In this document: positions 31,812 through 44,575 of the stretch, piece by piece
Layout: every line of letters starts with the position of its first letter
Numbering within the stretch: the stretch's first letter is position 1
Assembly (NCBI RefSeq): GCF_041154505.1
Contig: NZ_AP028672.1
Location: forward strand, 2,059,001-2,123,000
Source of the DNA: Acidovorax sp. A79
Lineage (GTDB): Bacteria > Pseudomonadota > Gammaproteobacteria > Burkholderiales > Burkholderiaceae_C
DNA length: 64,000 nt
Reading direction: 5' to 3'
Translations under genes and position numbers: made by a program
The notes under the pieces: generated by a model
Seen by the model: only the letters and a program-made list of their open reading frames with translations
What the model was told of the DNA's origin: nothing
Database searches by the model: none

Positions 31812-33344
31812 CTACCCAGGCGTCACCGCGTCAGGTTGCAAACGAGACGCGCTGCCACGCTGCGCAGTGGATGTGAATCGGCGTTCCACCTGCAGCAGGA
31901 AGTGCGAGAGCAAAGTGGAATACAGCTTGTCGCCCAATGCCGCATCTTCCATGCCAACATCGAGATTGGGGTTGTCGTTGATCTCGATGACATAGACACC
32001 AGAAGCCGTGGCCTTGATGTCCACCCCATAAAATCCATTGCCAACCAGGCGCGCGGAGTTGACGGCTGCCGCCAGCACCTCTGTGGGCACGTCTTGCAGC
32101 GGTACACCCTGAACCCGCCCCTCCGTGTACTTGCCATTTGCTGTGTGCTGCAGTATCTGCCAGTGCCCATTGCACATGAAGTACTTCGCCGCGAAGACCG
32201 CTTGCCCCGCCAGAACCCCGACGCGCCAGTCAAAGTCTGTGTACATGTACTCCTGCAGCAGGATGATTTCCGATTCCCTGAGCATGCCTTTCGCAATGTC
32301 CTGGAGATGCTCAAAGCTCTCCGCCTTCTTGACACTGCGGCTGAACGCACCATCCGGTACTTTCACCACCACGGGGTAGTCCAGCGTGTGCTCCATGCCG
32401 GCCAGCGTGCGCCGGCTGGCCATGCGCGTCACCGGTGTGGCAATGGCATGCTCGCGCAGAAGCTCCGCCAAAAAGGCTTTGTTCGTGCAGCGCAGGATGG
32501 ACACGGGGTCGTCTATGACCGGCATGCCCTCGGCGACAGCCTTTCTCGCAAACTGAAAGGTATGGTGCGTCACCGCGGTGGTTTCCCGAATGAACAGCGC
32601 ATCGAACTGGGTCAGGCGGGAGAAGTCCTTCTTCTCGATAAGCTCCACCGCAATTCCCATGTCCTGCCCCACATCAACCAACTTCTTGAGCGTCCTGAGA
32701 CTGGACGGAGGAAGCGGGTCATCCGGATCGTGCAGGACCGCGAGGTCCATCCGGGGCAGTGGCATGGCGACCATGGGGCGCCAGCTGCGCCGCGTGTACT
32801 GGCGGAGCGCTCGAACAAGGACCTCATCGCGCGCAGGCTCGACATCGCGAAGGTCCAACGCCTGTATTCCGCCGAGCTGCCAGTTTGCGGACTGCTCCTG
32901 CCGTTCGAGGGTGATCTCCATCAATGGACAACGGAACAGTTCAAAGCTCTTTCGAGCCAGCGGCGCCAGCACGGGGTCCTCCATGACCCCGAAGAACACA
33001 TGCAAGGTCAGCGTATTCACGGAGCCGGGGATTTCCTTCAGCGGACCGACCAGCCTATTGAGCTGCACGAACGCTTCATCAGGCTGCATTCGCTTGCGCT
33101 GAAGGCTGAGTATGGTGTCCACGCTGGGGGTGACCCGGTCGCCACGCGCCTCCGCCAGCAGGGAGCAGTAGTAGCCCATGCTGAGGTAGCCATAAGTCCG
33201 GCAAAGGTTCGTGACCTTGCGAAAACGCCCCCGGGCATCCGGCTCCTCCGCGACGAATTGATCGGCGGTGATGACTCTGATCTCGGGCTCGCTCCATCGA
33301 AAGTCTGCGAGCTTCTCCACCACGATCACATGTTCTGAAGACAA
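31812..33344 (-). CDS. RimK-like ATP-grasp ligase with RLAN N-terminal domain
   Basis: A 510-residue protein. The N-terminal ~230 residues match the RimK-like ATP-grasp N-terminal (RLAN) domain (TNLCRTYGYLSMGYYCSLLAEARG). The C-terminal half is an ATP-grasp fold with a conserved YPVVVKVPDGAFSRSVKKAE lysine segment and the Mg-binding EINDNP motif at 454-459. ATP-grasp enzymes of this type join an amino acid or peptide to a carboxylate. I start it at TTG 33344, 2 bases after the stop of the upstream gene with GGAAAG before it; no ATG fits. It is the last gene of an operon with the GNAT/C39 protein, a 40-aa peptide and an unknown protein. The substrate is not known. Confidence 0.85.
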   Translation of the reverse strand: MSSEHVIVVEKLADFRWSEPEIRVITADQFVAEEPDARGRFRKVTNLCRTYGYLSMGYYCSLLAEARGDRVTPSVDTILSLQRKRMQPDEAFVQLNRLVGPLKEIPGSVNTLTLHVFFGVMEDPVLAPLARKSFELFRCPLMEITLERQEQSANWQLGGIQALDLRDVEPARDEVLVRALRQYTRRSWRPMVAMPLPRMDLAVLHDPDDPLPPSSLRTLKKLVDVGQDMGIAVELIEKKDFSRLTQFDALFIRETTAVTHHTFQFARKAVAEGMPVIDDPVSILRCTNKAFLAELLREHAIATPVTRMASRRTLAGMEHTLDYPVVVKVPDGAFSRSVKKAESFEHLQDIAKGMLRESEIILLQEYMYTDFDWRVGVLAGQAVFAAKYFMCNGHWQILQHTANGKYTEGRVQGVPLQDVPTEVLAAAVNSARLVGNGFYGVDIKATASGVYVIEINDNPNLDVGMEDAALGDKLYSTLLSHFLLQVERRFTSTAQRGSASRLQPDAVTPG

Positions 33345-33345
33345 T

Positions 33346-34458
33346 TTATTTCTTTCCGGAGATGACGACCGCGGCAGTGCGCCTGCGGCGCCCGTATTTG
33401 GCGATCTTCTTGAATTCACCAAAGCTGATGGACACTCCGCCATCCGGGTCACTGGAACGCGCCATAGGGTCCAGAAGGCGAAAAACCGCGCCGTCAAAGC
33501 CGGTGATTACCACCCAATGTGGCGTTTTCTCCCGGTGAAGCCGCCACAGACTGATGAGGACAATGGGCAGGCTTCCCATGCGCAATTGCTCAATCACGCT
33601 TTCTGGAGAGACGGGCCGGGCATGGACAGGAACACGGTGAGCCTCCAGTTCCAACCGGAAGTCGTTTTCCACCAGCTGGATGACGTCTTTCTTGAGAGGG
33701 TCGCGCACACTGTCCATGAAGAGTGATGCGCCAGCCGCTGCATAGACCGACACGTCAAAGCCGCGGCGCAATGCCGCATGCGCAAGTCCGAAAGGACCAC
33801 ACCCACCATGGCCCGCCGCCATAAAGACCGTTGTGGCCTCACGCCATAGGCGGATTTCGGCGGCTTGATTGACAGGGATGGACGGGTCCACGGCAGACAT
33901 GGCCATCAGCAATGCGCAGGGCCCACAGGTGAAATCCAGCGTCTGGGCGTAGTGCCGCACCCGAGAGGCGTTCCCTTCTCGCGCCCGCGCGTCGTCGAAG
34001 AGGTCCTTCTGAAAGCACAAAGCGGCTTCGCCATCGCCGTAGTAGGCAAGCTTGCGGCCCATCCCCACGAATCCATGGCGAAGGAACAAGCGGTGTGCGC
34101 AGACATTGGAAGTCCTGCTCTCCAGCCTCAAAACCGCGCACCCGGCTTCTCGCGCGTCCCTGATCGCCGCGGTCAAAAGTTCAGCGGCTATGCCGGAACC
34201 CCGTACGGCAGACGCCACAGCGATCGAGTACAGGCGAGCTACAGAGGATCCCTTGCGGCGCAATACCACGCAGGCCCCCTCCAAGACTTCGCTCGATCTG
34301 CACACGAGAACGCGGGCCGACGGGCTGGCCAGCATGCGTTGCCAACTTCTGAACGAGATTCTGTCGTTCTCGAAAGCCGCGCGCTCCAGCCGATCGAGCG
34401 CGGCCAGATCGCCACGGTTCGCCGGCTCCACCTTGCTCCGATGGGAAGACGGCTTCAT
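33346..34458 (-). CDS. GNAT acetyltransferase / peptidase C39-like fusion protein
   Basis: A 370-residue two-domain protein. Residues 10-150 form a GNAT acetyltransferase with the acetyl-CoA loop in VRGSGIAAELL (about 85-95). Residues 165-365 form a C39-like papain-fold domain: Cys178 in LDFTCGPCALLMA, His314 in TPHWVVITG and Asp330 in LLDPMA form a complete triad. C39 domains normally cut Gly-Gly leader peptides; here the domain is cytosolic and has no ABC transporter. The gene overlaps the upstream 40-aa membrane-peptide gene (ATGA) and the ATP-grasp gene follows immediately, so the proteins very likely act together on a peptide. Confidence 0.85.
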   Translation of the reverse strand: MKPSSHRSKVEPANRGDLAALDRLERAAFENDRISFRSWQRMLASPSARVLVCRSSEVLEGACVVLRRKGSSVARLYSIAVASAVRGSGIAAELLTAAIRDAREAGCAVLRLESRTSNVCAHRLFLRHGFVGMGRKLAYYGDGEAALCFQKDLFDDARAREGNASRVRHYAQTLDFTCGPCALLMAMSAVDPSIPVNQAAEIRLWREATTVFMAAGHGGCGPFGLAHAALRRGFDVSVYAAAGASLFMDSVRDPLKKDVIQLVENDFRLELEAHRVPVHARPVSPESVIEQLRMGSLPIVLISLWRLHREKTPHWVVITGFDGAVFRLLDPMARSSDPDGGVSISFGEFKKIAKYGRRRRTAAVVISGKK

Positions 34459-34577
34459 CGAAGACCGCGCCCGGATTTGCGCGCGCCCCGGTCAGATAGC
34501 TTCAATGCCATCCACGCGACGCCGATCGGAACCAGCAGTACCAGCAGCGCCAGCGACACATGCACCCAGTCATCCAT
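34455..34577 (-). CDS. 40-aa single-span membrane peptide, translationally coupled
   Basis: A 40-codon gene: MDDWVHVSLALLVLLVPIGV gives one membrane helix, and the tail SDRGARKSGRGLR is strongly basic. GGAAGG lies 8 bases before the ATG. Its TGA overlaps the ATG of the GNAT/C39 gene (ATGA), the classic sign of translational coupling. Topology by the positive-inside rule puts the basic tail in the cytoplasm, where the acetyltransferase, protease-fold and ligase domains would meet it. It may be the substrate, an anchor or a regulator of these enzymes. I do not recognise a family. Confidence 0.65.
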   Translation of the reverse strand: MDDWVHVSLALLVLLVPIGVAWMALKLSDRGARKSGRGLR

Positions 34578-34658
34578 GGATCGACCTTCCGGGATCGCAA
34601 CGCCTGCGATCCGACAGCCACGCTCCCATGGATGGGGCCCACTGGATGCGGAGCGATG

Positions 34659-35006
34659 TCAATGGCACGGGAATTCCTCAGCACCAGCGACTTTCACCAC
34701 GCGGCCAAACTCGGCGTGCGGCAACACGCGCATCACGCAGCACACGGTGTGCAATACATCCTTGCGTTGCACAAGCAAGCTGAGACTTGCCCGCTCGCGG
34801 GGCCTGTCCAGACACATTCGGTACCCCCGCAACCGGGCGCCCAGAGCCGAATGAAGTGTCTTTCGCAAGTCCTGTGCGTCGGTGCATGAAGCGACCAGGG
34901 GCAGTGCCACCAGAGAGGCCGGACCGTCGCACTCCCCGGGGAAGGGCAGCATGGCCACCCGGTGCAGGCTGATCCCTGCGTATGTTTGCAGCATGTCTTT
35001 CGCCAC
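34659..35006 (-). CDS. Hypothetical protein, first gene of the ATP-grasp operon
   Basis: A 115-residue protein without a domain I can name; it contains YAGISLHRVAMLPFPGECDG and a C-terminal KDVLHTVCCVMRVLPHAEFG, with no signal peptide or membrane helix. Codon third positions are GC-rich as in the neighbouring genes, supporting real coding. A GTG start at 35006 has AAGG 7 bases upstream; an ATG four codons later is the alternative. It lies 81 bases before the 40-aa peptide gene on the same strand and so probably opens the operon. Function unknown. Confidence 0.55.
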   Translation of the reverse strand: MAKDMLQTYAGISLHRVAMLPFPGECDGPASLVALPLVASCTDAQDLRKTLHSALGARLRGYRMCLDRPRERASLSLLVQRKDVLHTVCCVMRVLPHAEFGRVVKVAGAEEFPCH

Positions 35007-35197: not shown

Positions 35198-35902
35198 TCA
35201 CACCGCGAGTCGGTACCCCACTCCCGATTCAGTCAGCAAGTGACGAGGCTGCGCCGGATCTGCCTCGAGCTTCTGCCTGAGATGCCCCATGTAGATGCGC
35301 AGGTAGTGGCTCTGGTCCGACCGCATCGGCCCCCACACTTCGCGGAGCAGCTGTTTCTGGGTGATGACCCGTCCCGAATTGGCGACCAGCACCGACAGCA
35401 TGCGGTACTCGGTCGGCGTCAGGTGGACTTCAACCCCGCCCTTGCGTACCAGCCGAGCGCTGCGGTCCACCTCCACGTCGCCAAAATGAAACGCTGGCTC
35501 CACCCCATCCACGGTGAGCCCATTTCCTGTCGCCGCACGCGGACGGCGAAGATTGGCACGCACGCGCGCCAGAAGCTCCCCCGTACCAAAGGGCTTGGTG
35601 AGATAGTCATCCGCTCCAGCATCGAGTGCGGAGACCTTGTCGGCCTCATCGGTGCGCGCAGACAGGACGATGATCGGCACGGCGGACCAGCCCCGCACGT
35701 CGCGGATCAGGTCAATGCCATCGCCGTCAGGCAACCCCAGGTCCAGCACCAGCAGATCGGGCTGGCGGGTACCCGCCGCAGACAGTCCTTCGCGCACCGT
35801 CGCGGCTTCATGAACCTGCCATCCTTCTGCTTCGAGCGCACTGCGAACGAAGCGCCGGATCTGCGGCTCATCCTCAACCACCAGCACGGTACGTATTTGC
35901 AT
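35198..35902 (-). CDS. kdpE: KdpE response regulator
   Basis: A 234-residue OmpR/PhoB-type regulator. The receiver domain has TVLVVEDEPQIRRF, the phospho-acceptor Asp in LLVLDLGLPDGDG and the conserved Lys in YLTKPFG. The winged-helix output domain has LTPTEYRMLSVLVANSGRVITQKQLLREVWG. With KdpD it activates kdp transcription under potassium limitation. The ATG at 35902 lies inside the end of kdpD (29-base overlap), so the two are coupled. Confidence 0.92.
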   Translation of the reverse strand: MQIRTVLVVEDEPQIRRFVRSALEAEGWQVHEAATVREGLSAAGTRQPDLLVLDLGLPDGDGIDLIRDVRGWSAVPIIVLSARTDEADKVSALDAGADDYLTKPFGTGELLARVRANLRRPRAATGNGLTVDGVEPAFHFGDVEVDRSARLVRKGGVEVHLTPTEYRMLSVLVANSGRVITQKQLLREVWGPMRSDQSHYLRIYMGHLRQKLEADPAQPRHLLTESGVGYRLAV

Positions 35903-38669
35903 CGTATCCCGGGGCGGCAACGCCCCGCTCCATATCTTCCAAATCGGGATCGGGGGGAGGCTCTCGGCGCGGGAGCGTGATGGTGAATTCCGCCCCGCCC
36001 CCGGTTGCGCTGGCAGCGGAGATCGTTCCGCCGTGCGCGTGCACCACCGCCTTGCAGATCGCCAACCCCAGGCCCACGCCCGGTGTCGCCGATTCAGCCT
36101 GTCCCCGGGTGAATTTCTCGAACAGCAGGTGTTCCCTGCCACGCACAGAGGGTGGCAGGCCAGGCCCGTGGTCCGTCACGGTCAACACCAGACTCCCTTC
36201 TGTCGCAAACGCCTTGATGACAACGGGCGGTGCGCCGTACTTGGCGGCATTCTCAAGCAAATTCACCAGCACGCGCTCAATGAGGACAGGATCGAACTCC
36301 ACCAGCGGCAAATGGGCGGGGATTTCCGTGCGAACGGTCAACTCCTTCAGCGCGGGCTTGGCGGCGCGTATCGAGGCGCCCACGACTTCCTCGACCGACT
36401 GCCAGTCACGCCGCAAGTGGACACTTTGTCCCGAAACATCACTTTCCAGCCTGGCCATGTCCAGCAGGTTGCTGACCAGCGCGTTGAGCTGGTGCGCCTG
36501 ATGCACGATGGCTTGTGCCACGGCATCGTGCTCCTCCGTCGGCAACCCCTTGAGCGATTCGGCCAGCGTGATCAGCGCCGTCAGCGGTGTTCTCACATCA
36601 TGGGAGACAGCGCCCAGCAAGGCATTGCGCAGCCGCTCGGACTCCATGTCCACCACCGCCTTTTGCGCGATGTGGACGTAGTGCACACGTTCGAGCGCGA
36701 TGGCGATCTGCCGGGCCAGGGTATCGAGTTGCTGAGCCTGCTCCGGAATCAGCAGCCACCTTGGGTGCGCGGGCTCCAGCGCCAGCACACCGCGCACCCT
36801 CATGGGCGCCTTGAGGGGGACATAGCGCCATGCCTGCGCCGCCAGAGTGCTCGTGGCCAGCCCCGCGCTCTGTCCTTGCCGCAAGGTCCAGTCGGCCACA
36901 CTTTTGTCAAATTCCTGCGGCAGATCATCGGGGTAGTGAAGGCGGTCCGACGCGTCCAATGCAACCACCACCGCCCTGCCGCCAAAATGCCCCTGCACAG
37001 CCGCCGCGCCGATCTCGATGACCTGGCTCGTCTCCAGGGCCGCCGACAGCTCGCGCGCAAGCTCGAACAGCGATTGGGCCCGGCGCTCCCGGCTGTTGGA
37101 CACTCCGGCCGCGAACCTGAGGCCGGCTGTGAGCTGCCCCACCAGAAGTCCCACCCCCAGCATCACGGCAAAAGTGACCACGTACTGCACGTCGCTGACC
37201 GCGAAAGACAGCCGCGGTGATACGAAGAAGAAATCGAAGGCCAGCACATTGAGCAGTGCGGCCATCGCCGCAGGCACGCGCCCGAATCGCATGGCGACCC
37301 CGACAACGCCGACCAGGTACAACATCACGATGTTGGTCAACTCCAGGACGCCGTGCAACAGAGTCGCCATCAACGTGACCGCAATGCTGGCACCGAGCGC
37401 CCAGAGGAAGCCCTGCCAGCGCGGGTGTGCGGCCTCGTCGGTTTCCCTGGCCTCAACGCCTACTTTGTGGCTCCAGAGTGCCTGCGGCAACCGCCTCGAA
37501 CTACCCGCGCGCGCCGTTTCCACGATATCAAGCGAGGGGGCAAGTCCCGCGATTTCCCGGCCCACCTCCCTGGTCGAAGGCCACTTCTGCCACCAGCGCC
37601 GCGGCGCAGGACGACCCAGGACCAGGGTGGCGCAATTGAGGTGAAGCGCCTGTGCAGCCAGGGCCGGCGCAACGTGGTCGCCCGTCAGCACCGCCGTCTC
37701 GGCGCCCAGCTCCTGCGCCAGTTGCAGCACGGCCAGAATCCTGTCGCGCTGCGGTGCGTCCAGCCTCTGCAGGCGCGGTGTCTCCACGTATGCGGCATGC
37801 CACTTCACATTGAGCTGCCCTGCCAGGCGCGCGGCCGCGCGCACGGTCTGCGCGGCATCTTCGTTCGGCCCGACACACGCCAGTATGCTGCCCGAGGTGT
37901 TCCAGGCGGCAGACACGCGCTCGCCGGGAGTGCCTGACTGTTCGATCCGCCATCCCAGGACGTCGTCCTCCACATGCTCAGCGGTGCGGCGCAGTGCGAT
38001 TTCGCGCAGGGCAATCAGGTTGCCCTTGCGGAAGAAGCTCTGGGCCGCACGCTCAGCCTGCTGGGGGACATACACCTTCCCTGCACTCAGGCGGGATATC
38101 AGTTCATCGGGGGTGGCGTCGACAAGCACCACTTCGTCCGCGTCGTCCAGCACGGTGTCGGGCACCGTCTCATGGACCCTGATCCCCGTGATCGCACCCA
38201 CGGTCCCATTGAGGCTCTCCAGATGCTGGACATTGAGCGCAGTCCACACATCGATGCCCGCGGCGAGCAGTTCCTGGACATCCTGCCAGCGCTTGGCATG
38301 GCGGGATCCCTGCACGTTGGAGTGGGCAAGCTCATCCACCAGGAGGATGGCCGGCTTGCGTGCAAGGGCCGCGTCCAGGTCAAACTCAAGGAGCAGCCGG
38401 CCACGGTACTCCACCTCCTTGAGGGGCAATGCATCCAATCCCGCGAGCAAGGCCGCCGTCTCGGCTCTGCCATGGGTTTCCACCACCCCGATCAGAACGT
38501 CGCGGCCAGCGCCACGCTCCCGCTGCGCCGCACTGAGCATGGCCCAGGTCTTGCCCACCCCTGCATTGGCGCCGAAGTAGATGCGCAGCTTGCCGCGCGT
38601 GGTCTGCTCCTCCTGCGCGCGCAGTTGCGCGATCAACGCATCGGGGTCTGGGCGCTGCATGTCAGCCAT
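35874..38669 (-). CDS. kdpD: KdpD potassium-sensing histidine kinase
   Basis: A 931-residue sensor kinase. The N-terminal KdpD domain has the P-loop FGANAGVGKTWAML and LLVDELAHSN. A USP-like domain follows, then four membrane helices (about residues 410-510, VTLMATLLHGVLELTNIVML). The GAF region precedes the kinase core with the phospho-acceptor His in GAVSHDVRTPLTAL and the N/G boxes VNLLENAAKYG and GVGLGLAI. It phosphorylates KdpE. It lies 59 bases after kdpC in the kdp operon and overlaps kdpE. Confidence 0.93.
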   Translation of the reverse strand: MADMQRPDPDALIAQLRAQEEQTTRGKLRIYFGANAGVGKTWAMLSAAQRERGAGRDVLIGVVETHGRAETAALLAGLDALPLKEVEYRGRLLLEFDLDAALARKPAILLVDELAHSNVQGSRHAKRWQDVQELLAAGIDVWTALNVQHLESLNGTVGAITGIRVHETVPDTVLDDADEVVLVDATPDELISRLSAGKVYVPQQAERAAQSFFRKGNLIALREIALRRTAEHVEDDVLGWRIEQSGTPGERVSAAWNTSGSILACVGPNEDAAQTVRAAARLAGQLNVKWHAAYVETPRLQRLDAPQRDRILAVLQLAQELGAETAVLTGDHVAPALAAQALHLNCATLVLGRPAPRRWWQKWPSTREVGREIAGLAPSLDIVETARAGSSRRLPQALWSHKVGVEARETDEAAHPRWQGFLWALGASIAVTLMATLLHGVLELTNIVMLYLVGVVGVAMRFGRVPAAMAALLNVLAFDFFFVSPRLSFAVSDVQYVVTFAVMLGVGLLVGQLTAGLRFAAGVSNSRERRAQSLFELARELSAALETSQVIEIGAAAVQGHFGGRAVVVALDASDRLHYPDDLPQEFDKSVADWTLRQGQSAGLATSTLAAQAWRYVPLKAPMRVRGVLALEPAHPRWLLIPEQAQQLDTLARQIAIALERVHYVHIAQKAVVDMESERLRNALLGAVSHDVRTPLTALITLAESLKGLPTEEHDAVAQAIVHQAHQLNALVSNLLDMARLESDVSGQSVHLRRDWQSVEEVVGASIRAAKPALKELTVRTEIPAHLPLVEFDPVLIERVLVNLLENAAKYGAPPVVIKAFATEGSLVLTVTDHGPGLPPSVRGREHLLFEKFTRGQAESATPGVGLGLAICKAVVHAHGGTISAASATGGGAEFTITLPRREPPPDPDLEDMERGVAAPGYDANTYRAGG

Positions 38670-38728: not shown

Positions 38729-39301
38729 CTACCGTGCATCATTCAAGGCAAGATTCAGTGCCAGTACGTTCACCCTGGGTTCGCCAAGCAGGCCCAGGAT
38801 CGGCTTTTCGGTGAGCTTGTCGACAAGGGCATTCACGCTCGCCACGGGGACGTTGCGGGCCCGCGCCACGCGGGCGGCTTGGTACTGTGCCGCCGCGACG
38901 CTGATATGCGGATCCAGACCGCTGGCGGACGCCGTCACCAGGTCCACGGGCACCGGCGCCAGATTGCCGGGGTCGGCCGCGCGCAATGCCTCCACGCGGG
39001 CCTTGACCGCATCGTTCAACGCCGGATTGAGGGGCCCCTGGTTGGAGCCTCCCGACGCCACCGCGTTGTAGGGCATGGGCGCCGTGGCCGACGGACGCCC
39101 CCAGAAATGCGCGGGTTCCGTGAAATTCTGGCCGATCGACGAAGAGCCAACGGCCTGGCCATTGCGCTGCACAAGGCTTCCCGCAGCCTCGTGGGGGAAA
39201 ACGGCCTGCGCCGCTCCGGTAACGGCCAAGGGGTACAGCAAGCCCGTCAGCGCGCTGAGGGCTACAAACACGATAAGTGCTGGGCGAAGAATGTTTTTCA
39301 T
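38729..39301 (-). CDS. kdpC: KdpC subunit of potassium-transporting ATPase
   Basis: A 190-residue protein with one N-terminal membrane helix ([21 protein letters not shown]). The KdpC signatures follow: [21 protein letters not shown], then [19 protein letters not shown] near the end. It stabilises the KdpA/KdpB complex and assists ATP binding. It sits between kdpB and kdpD in the standard order. Confidence 0.93.
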
Positions 39302-39311
39302 GGAAGGTTCC

Positions 39312-41411
39312 TCAAATCAGCCCTACGGCCACCAGTATCCAGTCAATCAGCTTGATGCCGACAAACGGCACGATCAAACCTCCGAGGCCATAGATCGCGA
39401 GGTTGCGGCGCAGCAGGGCCGCCGCCCCCACAGGGCGATACCGCACCCCTCGCAATGCCAGGGGGATCAGGAAGACGATCACCAGCGCATTGAAGATCAC
39501 GGCCGACAAGATGGCAGACGACGGGCTCGCCAGTTGCATGACGTTGAGCGCGGAAAGCTGCGGATAGGTCGACACGAAAATGGCCGGAATGATGGCGAAA
39601 TACTTCGCCACGTCGTTCGCGATCGAGAACGTCGTGAGAGAGCCTCGCGTCATCAAGAGCGCCTTTCCAGTCTCAACGACCTCCAGGAGTTTTGTCGGGT
39701 TGGAGTCCAGGTCGACCATGTTGCCAGCTTCCTTGGCGGCTTGCGTTCCGCTCCCCATCGCCACGGCGACATCGGCCTGCGCCAGTGCCGGCGCATCGTT
39801 GGTGCCGTCACCGGTCATGGCCACCAGTCGTCCTTCCGACTGGTACTTGCGGATCAGCGCCAGTTTGTCCTCCGGGGTCGCCTCCGCCAGGAAGTCATCG
39901 ACCCCGGCCTCCGCGGCGATGAAGGCTGCCGTGAGTTTGTTGTCACCCGTGATCATGACGGTGCGGATGCCCATGCGGCGCAACTCGGCGAAGCGCTCCT
40001 TGATGCCGACCTTCACGACATCCTTGAGTTCCACAACACCGAGCACCTGACGCCCTTCCGTCACCACCAGGGGGGTGCTTCCCCGGTACGCCACCTGGTC
40101 GGCGGCGGCCGCCACTTCGTGTGGCATGGCGCCCCCCTGCGCTTCCACATGCCGCGCAATGGCTTGCACGGCTCCCTTGCGCAGCATGGTTGCGGGCTGC
40201 CCGGACGCTTCGACGGCAGGGAGGTCGACACCGCTCATCCGCGTCTGCGCAGTGAAAGGCACAAGCAGCACGCCCTGCGGATTCTCGTCGGGGGTGCCCG
40301 AACGGCGGGCCAGCTCGACGATGCTGCGCCCTTCAGGCGTCTCGTCCGCAAGCGATGCCAGCAAGGCTGCGCGGGCCAGGCGGCCAGGTGAAACCCCTGG
40401 AGCGGGCAGGAACGCACTGGCTTGGCGATTCCCGTGGGTAATGGTCCCGGTCTTGTCCAGCAGGAGCACATCGACATCTCCTGCGGCCTCCACGGCCCGC
40501 CCCGAGGTCGCAATCACGTTGGCCTGCATCATCCGGCTCATGCCAGCCACGCCAACGGCCGACAGCAGTCCACCGATGGTGGTCGGGATGAGGCACACCA
40601 GCAGGGCCACCAGGGCCGTCAGAGAGACGACAGTCCCAGCCGCTGAAGCCTGCACGCTGAAGATCGAAAAAGGCAGCAGGGTGACGGTGACCACCAGGAA
40701 CACAATCGTCAATGCCACCAACAAGATCGTCAAGGCGACCTCATTGGGCGTCTTTTGCCGCTTGGCGGCCTCCACCATTCCAATCATCCGGTCCAGGAAA
40801 GACTCGCCTGGATTCACGGACACGCGCACCACGAGCCAATCGGAAAGCACGCGGGTGCCGCCCGTCACGGCGGAGAAGTCCCCACCGGACTCGCGAACCA
40901 CCGGCGCAGATTCGCCGGTGATGGCACTTTCGTCGACAGAGGCTACGCCCTCGATCACTTCACCATCCAGCGGAATCACATCGCCCGCCTCCACCAGCAC
41001 CACGTCGCCGCGGCGCAAGTTGGTGGCCTGCTCCGGCAGGAACGCGGAACCATGGACCGGCTCCTTGAGTTTCTTGGCCCAGGTTTCCTTGCGCAATCCA
41101 CGCAAGGAGGCTGCCTGGGCCTTGCTGCGGCCTTCGGCCAACGCTTCGGCGAAGTTGGCGAACAGCACCGTAAACCAGAGCCAGACGGTGATGGCCAGCA
41201 CGAAGCCCGGGCGCACGCTCGCATCCGCCGGTGCGTTGAGGGCATGCAGCCACAGCAGCGTGGTGAAGATGCTGCCGATGTACACGATGAACATCACCGG
41301 GTTGCGCCATTGAACCAGCGGGCTGAGCTTGGCCAGCGCCCCCCAGAACGCTGTCCGGATCAGGACAGGATCCAGCAGAGAAGTAGAAGTATTCTTTTTA
41401 GTCATCGGCAA
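39312..41411 (-). CDS. kdpB: KdpB catalytic P-type ATPase subunit
   Basis: A 699-residue class IA P-type ATPase: TGESAPV in the actuator domain, the phosphorylation site DKTGT in [15 protein letters not shown], and [19 protein letters not shown] in the hinge. It drives K+ uptake with ATP together with KdpA and KdpC. The length is typical for KdpB. It starts 3 bases after the kdpA stop codon. Confidence 0.95.
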
Positions 41412-41414
41412 ACC

Positions 41415-43220
41415 TCACTTGGCCCAGAGCATCAGGTGCTCGACCATCGGACCCAAAGCCAGGGCAGGCACGTAGTTGAGAAGCCCCACCAGAAGCACGG
41501 TCCCCACGAGAAGAACCACGAACAGCGGCCCATGGGTGGGCATGGTGCCCGCCGTCACCGGCAGGCGCTTCTTCGCGGCCAGCGAACCAGCGATGGCCAG
41601 GACGGGCACGATCACTCCAAAGCGGCCAAACCACATTGCCAGCCCCAGCAGTACGTTGTAGAACGGCGTATTGGCAGACAGCCCCGCAAACGCGCTGCCG
41701 TTGTTGTTCGCGGCGGATGTCAATGCATAGAGGATTTCGGAGAACCCATGGGCGCCAGGGTTGGCAACGCCGGCCTGTCCTGCGCCCGCACTCACGGCAA
41801 CCGCGGTACCCACGAGCACCAGGATCGGCGTTACCAGAATGGCGACCGATGTGAGCTTCATTTCGCGCACCTCGATCTTCTTGCCCAAATACTCGGGCGT
41901 CCGGCCGATCATGAGACCCGCCATGAACACGGCAAGGATGGCGAATACCAGCATGCCATAGAGGCCGGTGCCCACGCCGCCAAACACGACCTCGCCCAGT
42001 TGCATGAGAACCAGAGGCACCATGCCTCCCAGAGGCGTGAACGAGTCATGCATCGCGTTCACGGCGCCACATGAGGCAGCGGTGGTCACGGCCGCGAAAA
42101 GCGCTGACGCGGTGATTCCGAACCGCACTTCCTTGCCCTCCATGTTCCCGCCCGATTGCAGGGTGCTGACGGATTGGTCCACCCCCAGCGCACTCCATTG
42201 CGGATTGCCGGCCTGTTCCGCCGCGACAGCGGCCACGACGGCCACGACGAACATCACCGTCATCGCCGCCAGGATCGCGACGCCCTGGCGCTGGTCGCCA
42301 ACAACACGGCCAAATGCGAAGCACAAGGCCGCGGGAATCAGAAAGATCGCCAGCATTTGCACGAAGTTCGTCAAGGCGGTGGGGTTCTCATAGGGATGGG
42401 CGGAGTTGGCGTTGAAGAACCCACCGCCGTTCGTGCCGAGCATCTTGATCGCCTCCTGCGAGGCCACCGGTCCCATGGCCAGCGTCTGGGTCTTGCTGGT
42501 CCTGCCCTCCATGACCGGTGCTCCGTCAGCACCTGTCACGGGCTGGCCTGCACCATCCAGCCTGGGCACTTCATAGGCCGTCTGCTCCAGGGTTGCGACC
42601 TCCTTGTAGGCGTCAAAATTCTGGATGACGCCCTGCCCGACCAGAACGAGCGCGATTACAAAGGAGGCCGGCACAAGCACCCAAGCCGTGATCCGGGTGA
42701 CGTCGGTCCAGAAGTTTCCGACATATCCCTGTCCGTCGGTGCGCCGGGCCGCAAAGCCGCGGGCCAACGCGAACGCCACGGCGATACCGGTGGCAGCTGA
42801 CAAGAAGTTCTGAACGGAAAGGCCAAGCATCTGCGTGAGATAGCTCATCGTGGATTCACCCGCGTAGCCCTGCCAGTTGGTATTGGCAACAAAACTGATG
42901 GCAGTGTTGAACGACGAGTCGCCGGACACCGCCCCCATTCCCTGGGGATTGAGCGGCAGCAGGTGCTGCAGGCGCTGCAGGCCATACACCGCCAATGCAC
43001 CGATGGCATTGAACGCCAACAGTGCCTGCGCATATCCGTGCCAGTGCATCGACTGATCGGGAGCCACCCCGGCCATCTTGTAGAGCGGTTTTTCGGCCAC
43101 ATGCATCCACCGAGGCAACCGGCCCTCACACAGGGCGGCCAGCCATTTGCCCAGTGGCCATGCCAGGACGCCAAGCGCAACCAGAAAGAGCCCGAGCAGG
43201 CTCCAGGCAGAGGTTTCCAT
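41415..43220 (-). CDS. kdpA: KdpA potassium-binding channel-like subunit
   Basis: A 601-residue polytopic membrane protein: [20 protein letters not shown] (selectivity-filter repeat), [26 protein letters not shown] and [17 protein letters not shown], the KdpA pore repeats. It selects K+ in the inner membrane. It lies 1 base after the kdpF stop codon; its ATG is followed by the expected short N-terminal segment ([19 protein letters not shown]). Confidence 0.95.
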
Positions 43221-43221
43221 G

Positions 43222-43320
43222 TCAGAACTCCTCCGCGCAGATCAGCGCGAACACGAGATAGGCCAGCAAGGCAATGGCCACAAGCGCGCCAAAGCCATAA
43301 AGCACTTCGAGGCCGATCAT
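43222..43320 (-). CDS. kdpF: KdpF small membrane subunit
   Basis: A 32-codon gene: [20 protein letters not shown] then [12 protein letters not shown], one membrane helix, as in KdpF, a 29-33 residue stabiliser of the Kdp complex. Its ATG overlaps the stop of the upstream small gene (ATGA), and it is followed one base later by kdpA. Confidence 0.85.
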
Positions 43321-43421
43321 GCGCGCTCACCCTTGGCCGGGCCGAATTTGCCCAGCAAAACCACGGCCTCGGCCATGGCCACCCACAGAGCCGCCAATGC
43401 GGCTATCCAGATCATGTCCAT
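43317..43421 (-). CDS. 34-aa membrane peptide, first gene of the kdp operon
   Basis: A 34-codon gene encoding MDMIWIAALAALWVAMAEAV and a basic tail [10 protein letters not shown], so a single membrane helix with a cytoplasmic basic end. GGAG lies 6 bases before the ATG. Its TGA overlaps the kdpF ATG, so it is translated as part of the kdp operon. It is not KdpF, which follows intact. It may be an additional small subunit or a regulator of the Kdp complex; that role is inferred from position only. Confidence 0.6.
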   Translation of the reverse strand: MDMIWIAALAALWVAMAEAVVLLGKFGPAKGERA

Positions 43422-43464
43422 CGACAACTCCTGCATCAAAACGTGTGTTTGATTCTCAGGATGT

Positions 43465-43518
43465 CGCTGTAAAAAGTGTGCACAGACTGGGGAGGTCGCC
43501 GTAAAAACGGCGTAAAAA
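43465..43518 (-). promoter_or_regulatory. Candidate KdpE operator: three TTTTTAC(A/G)(C/G)CG repeats
   Basis: On the minus strand TTTTTACGCCG (43508-43518) and TTTTTACGGCG (43497-43507) are directly adjacent, an 11-bp period. A third copy TTTTTACAGCG lies at 43465-43475, about 50 bases before the operon's first start codon. T-rich direct repeats in front of kdp genes are typical for KdpE. The outer copy overlaps the T-run of the corA terminator. Confidence 0.45.
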
Positions 43519-43537
43519 TGCGGCCCTTGCGAGGGCC
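43510..43537 (-). terminator. Terminator of the corA gene
   Basis: The minus-strand stem GGCCCT-cgca-AGGGCC is followed by GCATTTTTAC. It lies about 60 bases after the corA stop and ahead of the kdp promoter region. Confidence 0.65.
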
Positions 43538-43597
43538 ACCGATCTACCGGCGCCTGGCTGCTGGAACCCGCGCCCCGGACGGCTCCGCACCTGTTAT

Positions 43598-44575
43598 CTA
43601 GAGCCAGCCCGCCTTGCGAAAGCGATAGTAGAGATAGCAACAGGTGGTGGCGATGAGGGCGATCGCAGTGGCGTATCCGTAGCGCCACTTGAGCTCCGGC
43701 ATGTGCTCGAAATTCATGCCCCAGATTCCCGCGAACGCCGTGCACACGGCAAACAGACTGGCCCACGCAGCCAGGCGCTTGACGACCTCGCCATCCTCGA
43801 TGGTGACCATGGACAGATTGACATGGATTGCCGTCCCGATCGTGTCGCGAATGGAGTCGATGGAGGTGTTGATCCGGCCAAGGTGGTCCACCACATCGCG
43901 GAAATACTCCTGAGAGCCAGCACAGATTTGTGGCACCCGGCCACCGTGCAGCTTGGCCGCACCTTCCAGCAATGGGGCAACGGCGTGCTTGAGCAGGGTA
44001 AGGCGCTGCTTGAGTTCATAGAGCCGCCGGATACTGGTCCGCGCGACACCCTTGGTGAATATCTGTTGCTCGATCGTTTCAAGCTCCACCTCGAGGGCAT
44101 CGATGATCGGGAAGTAGCGATCGACCACCGCGTCCATCAGCGCATACAGCACAAATCCCGGCCCGCTGCGCAAGAGTTCAGGCTCTCTCTCACAACGCTC
44201 CCGCACATCCCAGAAGCCTCGCTCACTGCGGTTGCGCACCGACACCACATAGTTACTGCCCACGAACACATTGAGTTCGCCCAGCCTCGTGACGGTCTCG
44301 TGGTCCCCACCCGACTCCAGGAGATGAAGAACCACAAAAAGAGAAGGCCCGTATTCCTCGACTTTGGGCCGCTGATGGCCATGGCGGGCATCTTCCACCG
44401 CCAAGGGATGCAGGCCGAACTCCTTTTGCAACTCGTCAAGTTCTTCCGGGGTGGGGTCATGCAATGCCACCCACACGAAGCACCCGGGGAGCGATATGTG
44501 CTCACGGATCTCACGGACAGGAATGTCGGCGAGCTTGGTGCCATCCTCATACACGACGCAGTTGATCAACATCAC
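43598..44575 (-). CDS. corA: CorA magnesium/cobalt transporter
   Basis: A 325-residue CorA. The cytoplasmic alpha/beta domain contains RPKVEEYGPSLFVVLHLL, the long stalk helix includes VDHLGRINTSIDSIRDTIG, and two membrane helices flank the GMN signature at about 286-288 (IWGMNFEHMPELKW). It forms a pentameric channel for Mg2+. The size is standard. It lies upstream of the kdp operon on the same strand but is separated by a terminator, and it is divergent from the porin at 44755. Confidence 0.9.
   Translation of the reverse strand: MMLINCVVYEDGTKLADIPVREIREHISLPGCFVWVALHDPTPEELDELQKEFGLHPLAVEDARHGHQRPKVEEYGPSLFVVLHLLESGGDHETVTRLGELNVFVGSNYVVSVRNRSERGFWDVRERCEREPELLRSGPGFVLYALMDAVVDRYFPIIDALEVELETIEQQIFTKGVARTSIRRLYELKQRLTLLKHAVAPLLEGAAKLHGGRVPQICAGSQEYFRDVVDHLGRINTSIDSIRDTIGTAIHVNLSMVTIEDGEVVKRLAAWASLFAVCTAFAGIWGMNFEHMPELKWRYGYATAIALIATTCCYLYYRFRKAGWL

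Follow-up and report, generated by a model that had tools for sequence, protein, structure and literature searches.

A kdp-linked membrane micropeptide and an adjoining amidoligase gene pair in Acidovorax sp. A79

A block of four same-strand genes adjoins the kdp genes of Acidovorax sp. A79, in a 64,000-nucleotide stretch of the genome (NCBI RefSeq assembly GCF_041154505.1, contig NZ_AP028672.1, positions 2,059,001 to 2,123,000; hereafter the window). It encodes a 115-amino-acid protein and a 40-amino-acid membrane peptide, named here after their open reading frames (ORF115 and ORF40), a GNAT acetyltransferase fused to a C39-like papain-fold domain (GNAT/C39), and a ligase with an RLAN and an ATP-grasp domain. 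Our analysis makes it probable that a kdp cluster carries two add-on modules here, ORF115 and ORF40 forming an accessory pair of Kdp and the two enzymes an independent amidoligase pair placed beside kdp. Gene order, coding status, linkage, the conserved catalytic residues of the enzymes and the peptide's independence of the ligase are directly supported by the observations below. The locus is real and modestly surprising, in that the enzyme pair was already known and the micropeptide family is unmodelled in the libraries searched. An earlier reading of these genes from the sequence alone (the original prediction) had seen in them an operon that makes or modifies a small peptide, with the 40-amino-acid protein as its substrate, anchor or regulator.

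Organization and coding status of the locus

The kdpF-A-B-C-D-E genes lie directly upstream of the four-gene block on the same strand. The features of both, in window coordinates, are:

43222..43320, minus strand: kdpF, 32 amino acids, canonical (PF09604 and TIGR02115, both above cut-off)
41415..43220, minus strand: kdpA (PF03814)
39312..41411, minus strand: kdpB, P-type ATPase (E1-E2 ATPase and hydrolase domains)
38741..39289, minus strand: kdpC (PF02669; coordinates are the extent of the profile match, G000:C1:2097741-2098289)
35874..38669, minus strand: kdpD, sensor kinase (PF02702)
35198..35902, minus strand: kdpE, response regulator (Response_reg and Trans_reg_C)
35006-34659, minus strand: ORF115, 115 amino acids, GTG start, predicted beta-alpha-beta-beta-alpha-beta (ferredoxin-like) core, distant kdp-linked relatives
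34577-34455, minus strand: ORF40, ATG start, 40-amino-acid single-pass membrane peptide of a P-x4-W family, basic C-terminal tail, kdp-linked
34458-33346, minus strand: GNAT acetyltransferase fused to a DUF3335 (PF11814) C39-like papain-fold domain, 370 amino acids, assigned from domain matches and catalytic residues
33344-31812, minus strand: RLAN (PF14401) and RimK-like ATP-grasp ligase, 510 amino acids, TTG start, assigned from domain and fold matches

The original prediction had recorded that no transporter is present, which holds inside the span of the four genes but not beyond it, since kdpFABCDE, unreported there, sits immediately upstream. Its description of four same-strand genes, the last three tightly coupled, agrees with the coordinates: an ATGA overlap joins the ORF40 stop to the GNAT start, and a single base separates the GNAT stop from the ligase TTG. 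ORF115 and ORF40 are 81 bases apart. The TTG at 33344 is the preferred ligase start, and a database copy (P0057) likewise has 510 amino acids.

The ORF40 frame encodes a protein. Across nine distinct Acidovorax copies (35 of 36 pairs usable), the median ratio of non-synonymous to synonymous substitution rates (dN/dS) is 0.32, with a range of 0.09-2.03, and both alternative frames over ORF40 hold stops in all nine. These two results rule out a chance frame, and because its codons are under purifying selection, ORF40 is a real peptide. For ORF115, dN/dS is 0.45 (12 sequences, 64 usable pairs). Searches of Pfam and NCBIfam at E 0.1 gave no match for ORF115 or ORF40.

A micropeptide family that follows kdp

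A hidden Markov model (HMM) built from 11 peptides was searched against 250 genomes of the family, 80 of which matched at E<=0.1, many of them weakly and inside long frames. At E<=1e-3 the model marked 16 places, 15 of which are kdp loci; the sixteenth (G236) falls within a 1199-amino-acid frame, its surroundings left unfetched. Weaker matches included one at kdp (G004, E 0.004) and a false match without kdp (G013, E 0.001). KdpC is present in 91 of 230 family genomes, and kdp loci were scanned in 89 of these, G008 and the G163 fragment being left out. The peptide stands at kdp in 20 of the 89 (G000, G085, G187, G039, G072, G122, G132, G215, G162, G071, G177, G190, G120, G004, G099, G194, G210, G226, G175 and G136; weakest accepted match G210, E 8e-5), a lower bound, since the view covered only 1.5 kilobases (kb) to either side of kdpC in 30 loci and mainly the region downstream of kdpC in 40. 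Within the kdp locus the peptide takes several positions: some copies are flanked by kdpD on one side and by kdpC or kdpB on the other, some follow kdpE, and some are divergently oriented relative to kdpA.

Fifteen of these 20 genomes lie outside the ten RLAN-positive genomes of the family. In G947, moreover, the two modules are physically split, the enzyme pair and ORF115 lying on contig C15 without the peptide, and the peptide on C56 between kdpC and kdpD. The 15 genomes without an RLAN match and this split together indicate that the peptide follows kdp, not the ligase. Among 13 Acidovorax loci, nine have the peptide, all nine with kdpE and kdpD upstream, and three (L020, L021 and L022) have neither peptide nor kdp in the flanks covered, which measure 4 kb for L020 and L021 and about 1.3 kb for L022; L017 begins at a contig edge and is not judgeable. 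In G919 (L315 / L308), a peptide frame between kdpC and kdpD looks interrupted. A TorF-like porin gene was seen between peptide and kdpD in some kdp loci, one of them confirmed.

An alignment of 22 diverse peptides has just two invariant positions, Pro17 and Trp22 in the window's numbering. The C-terminal tail, which the original prediction had proposed to compare for a conserved residue, proved to be the least conserved part and is mostly basic. A search of 5.8 billion proteins with the 22-row alignment returned at least 55 proteins at E<=0.1 among 7,994 candidates scored, several of them from Rhodoferax, Polaromonas and Alicycliphilus, and named at most 'hypothetical protein' or uncharacterized; a protein-database search with a single peptide sequence had returned only two clusters. 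In the literature searched (titles and abstract openings, subscription journals being poorly covered), no paper describing this peptide was found. The analysis thus adds a kdp-linked membrane micropeptide family that lies beyond Pfam and NCBIfam models save for weak helix matches, together with a second linked small protein, beside a much-studied ion pump.

This second protein, ORF115, has counterparts at seven kdp loci; at five of them the counterpart stands just ahead of the peptide. The likeness of ORF115 to CutA, DUF3240, PII and ACT-type ferredoxin-like proteins is at the level of fold only, with identity below 20%, and in its predicted model the turn between strands 2 and 3 spans about four residues, with no PII T-loop visible.

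The GNAT/C39 and RLAN ligase pair

The pairing of GNAT/DUF3335 with an RLAN/ATP-grasp amidoligase was reportedly described by Iyer et al. in 2009. In the window, GNAT and PF11814 (DUF3335, C39-like) form one protein, and RLAN (PF14401) and the RimK-type ATP-grasp domain are joined in the adjoining gene. The catalytic residues, which the original prediction had judged intact by inspection, are conserved across homologues: in 72 aligned GNAT/C39 proteins, Cys178 and His314 are found in 72/72 and Asp330 in 70/72 (the other two have Glu), and across 63 ligases E454, N456 and N458 of the EINDNP site show a conservation of 97% or more. Alignment rows were open frames of more than 330 amino acids (GNAT/C39) or more than 440 (ligase), both alignments omitting the near copies L010, L026 and L027, and the ligase set also L022, which aligned in two pieces.

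The best sequence and fold matches of the ligase are RimK, LysX and ArgX, enzymes that ligate amino acids to an acceptor, either a peptide or an amino acid. It differs from them by its additional N-terminal RLAN domain, shares about 20% identity with them, and scores below the NCBIfam RimK cut-offs (TIGR00768, 70.2 against 143.4 bits; NF007764, 32.6 against 331). The two enzymes make up a known amidoligase pair, separate from the peptide, with a predicted amide-bond-forming activity. On the enzymes the original prediction was reasonable, given a ligase that resembles RimK in both sequence and fold and DUF3335 domains that PMC10318531 describes as often fused to GNATs. The pair matches the GNAT/DUF3335 and RLAN/ATP-grasp amidoligase pair referred to there (reference 74 of PMC10318531) in domains, order and adjacency; it differs from other such pairs in its position next to or inside a kdp operon. 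No functional study of the GNAT/C39 and RLAN pair was found among the titles and abstract openings searched.

Among genomes of the family, DUF3335 occurs in 6 out of 250; at order level a single genome out of 300, the window's own, has it, and at class level 62 out of 369 do, 59 of them over cut-off. A GNAT/C39 match below E 1e-100 is present in 15 of 47 genomes of the window's genus. RLAN was found in the ten family genomes mentioned above, out of 250, and in 56 of 299 phylum-level genomes. Among 56 class loci, that is, the strong class-level GNAT/C39 loci besides the window's own, the ligase lies directly downstream of GNAT/C39 in 42, and some of the others are at contig ends or have the ligase on the opposite strand.

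Variants of the pair were also seen. A stand-alone GNAT with no C39 match is paired with an RLAN ligase in G072 (L193 / L263) and G067 (L260), and the papain-like domain is thus dispensable in some lineages. In one of the 15 matching genomes of the window's genus, the GNAT/C39 gene (G926:C1:140146-141283) is split by a stop. Frames judged by eye to be DUF155/RMD1-like follow GNAT/C39 or the pair in L060, L065, L080, L089 and L109, and DUF2817-like frames, likewise judged by eye, precede GNAT/C39 in L061, L104 and L105, where the ligase is on the other strand; one partial sequence of each kind was scanned and fell below cut-off.

Association of the enzyme pair with kdp and alternative explanations

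Within the family, the pair stands at kdp in three lineages, each with its own arrangement. Besides Acidovorax, these are G039 (L024, another genus), with the order kdpA-kdpB-kdpC, a 39-amino-acid peptide overlapping the GNAT start, GNAT/C39, RLAN, an ORF115-like gene, kdpD and kdpE, and G072, where the stand-alone GNAT and RLAN genes are divergent from kdpABC. A maximum-likelihood tree of 63 ligases groups the Burkholderiaceae pairs, apart from the two distant RLANs, into a single starred clade of 17 rows; on starred branches, the kdp-linked label needs at least four changes. On this tree, kdp linkage of the pair has been gained or lost repeatedly. Around the distant RLAN genes, those of G097 and G198, 15-16 kb of sequence gave no match to GNAT or kdp.

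The strongest competitor of our reading holds that the modules are neighbours by chance, insertions being tolerated at the end of kdp and the enzyme pair having nothing to do with potassium physiology. We regard it as unlikely, though deserving of serious consideration: the three placements at kdp in three different arrangements, the minimum of four label changes and the position of the pair inside the kdp operon of G039 argue against it, but the wider distribution of the pair speaks in its favour. Specifically, no kdp cluster was found in the flanks of the 56 class-level loci, which rules out a class-wide link of the pair to kdp (L059, L074, L079, L092 and L105 gave only general response-regulator, kinase or P-type ATPase matches, at 26-37% identity). 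The pair is also kdp-free in five Burkholderiaceae lineages (L020/L022, L021 with 4 kb checked, G067, G084 and G148). In G947, G919, G148, G084 and G067 it lies away from kdp, whose genes are on other contigs (C13 in the case of G919, where C23 carries the pair). Finally, 59 of 500 shuffled labels scored as low in the tree test, so that the kdp-linked label is not significantly clustered on the ligase tree.

These points of distribution weigh against our preferred reading, and so do others that bear on the two small proteins. Scanning of the 89 kdp loci left 69 in which no peptide was seen, many of them viewed only partly, so that the peptide is not general to Kdp. Weak matches to PF19865 (DUF6338), the best at E 0.0014, were obtained for 11 of the 22 peptides, and we read them as generic helix similarity. 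In all three lineages in which the pair and kdp are linked, the peptide precedes GNAT, so that a secondary tie between peptide and enzymes is possible. The relationship between ORF115 and its kdp-linked relatives is of moderate strength (57% probability by hhalign, E 1.1e-4), the loci searched for its relatives had been picked around kdp or the enzyme pair, and L020-L022 keep ORF115 beside the enzyme pair without kdp, which points to a tie between ORF115 and the enzymes.

The idea of the original prediction, that the operon modifies a small peptide with ORF40 as substrate, anchor or regulator, now seems improbable. It draws on the ATGA coupling of ORF40 to GNAT and on the peptide lying directly upstream of GNAT wherever the pair is kdp-linked. 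As a ligase substrate, however, the peptide is argued against by its dissociation from the ligase across genomes: besides occurring at kdp in the 15 genomes without an RLAN match and apart from the pair in G947, it is present in none of the 56 class-level GNAT/C39 loci (best HMM E 1.1 over 13,368 frames) and is absent from the enzyme loci L020-L023, L025 and G067. A short membrane-peptide gene does not, then, always precede GNAT/C39, the point that the original prediction had proposed to check; L095 has an unrelated short hydrophobic frame ahead of its GNAT. The C-terminal tail, the expected target of a RimK-like ligase, is moreover the very part of the peptide that varies most. Of the two findings named in advance as fatal to the original prediction, that homologous loci lack the small frame and that its codons are free of purifying selection, the first was obtained for most homologous enzyme loci and the second was not. 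As the coupling of peptide and ligase fails, the reading of a ligase with a coupled peptide as a peptide-natural-product operon is wrong; a bacteriocin or ribosomally synthesized and post-translationally modified peptide of the graspetide type would have a ligase-specific precursor, and this peptide is found in genomes that have no ligase match, while none of the 56 class loci has it. Where both occur, the peptide might still play some part towards the enzymes.

There is similarly little to recommend ORF40 as a KdpF that was displaced or duplicated. According to PMC3618439, KdpF is a membrane peptide of 30 amino acids that is transcribed together with kdpABC and presumed to stabilize the complex; ORF40 resembles it as a single-helix peptide of like size encoded in a kdp operon. 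ORF40 is not the missing KdpF, because a canonical kdpF is already present in the window (43320-43222) and coexists with it. ORF40 also follows kdpE (its relatives follow kdpC or kdpB or diverge from kdpA) rather than directly preceding kdpA, and it has a mostly basic tail and an invariant Pro and Trp, a P-x4-W core that the window's KdpF lacks. The 22 peptides have no PF09604 match at E<=1, and no NCBIfam match was found for ORF40 and one relative.

Proposed roles of the two modules

KdpFABC is described as a potassium pump controlled by KdpDE (PMC11018627). Under our preferred reading of a kdp cluster with two add-on modules, ORF115 and ORF40 would be made together with KdpFABC under KdpDE control. 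ORF40 would sit in the membrane beside the pump or KdpD, stabilizing or tuning it as KdpF is thought to do, and ORF115 may be its soluble, cytosolic partner; position and architecture are what suggest an action of ORF40 on the Kdp complex or KdpD. The enzyme pair, induced with Kdp, would be active in potassium limitation or osmotic stress and would form or trim a peptide conjugate of the RimK-like kind. Its ligase may attach one amino acid to a peptide or other small acceptor, its GNAT may cap an amine, and its papain-like domain may trim or remove the product. It is gene order that would tie such a reaction to potassium stress, and an orphan enzyme pair thereby gains a concrete condition, potassium limitation or osmotic stress, in which to examine it.

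A partly comparable case is the Rlo system of Pseudomonas aeruginosa, which PMC12239564 ties to hypo-osmotic stress and in which a RimK-like ATP-grasp gene and a peptidase gene share a small operon. Rlo differs from the window pair in having a retropepsin and an inactive transglutaminase instead of GNAT/C39, and no kdp link is described in the available part of PMC12239564.

A bolder and distinctly speculative extension is that Kdp of Comamonadaceae-type bacteria has an undescribed regulatory module, consisting of the P-x4-W micropeptide and a ferredoxin-like protein, and that the amidoligase pair was repeatedly recruited to it. Potassium limitation might then drive an ATP-dependent peptide ligation that modifies a Kdp component or makes an acylated peptide osmolyte replacing potassium glutamate.

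Neighbouring genes

A scan for promoters and terminators was uninformative, with no promoter-like site and two terminator-like sites against 3.0 expected. The cluster is flanked by a CorA transporter gene (a clear match) at 43598-44575 on the minus strand, before kdpF, and by a gene for a CorA-like protein (below cut-off) at 31603-29873 on the minus strand, after the ligase. Among Acidovorax loci the latter occurs only in the window species (L010 and L026); in L023, a CorA gene likewise follows the enzyme pair. One further small frame lies directly before kdpF:

43317..43421, minus strand: further small membrane peptide frame, 34 amino acids (MDMIWIAALAALW...), the end of frame 43317-43766

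The window copy of this frame has no Pfam or NCBIfam match. Membrane peptide frames of 27-37 amino acids and of the MD-x-x-W/Y-I type are found upstream of kdpA, beside the kdpF position, in several kdp operons (window, L198, L202, L264, L199 and L204).

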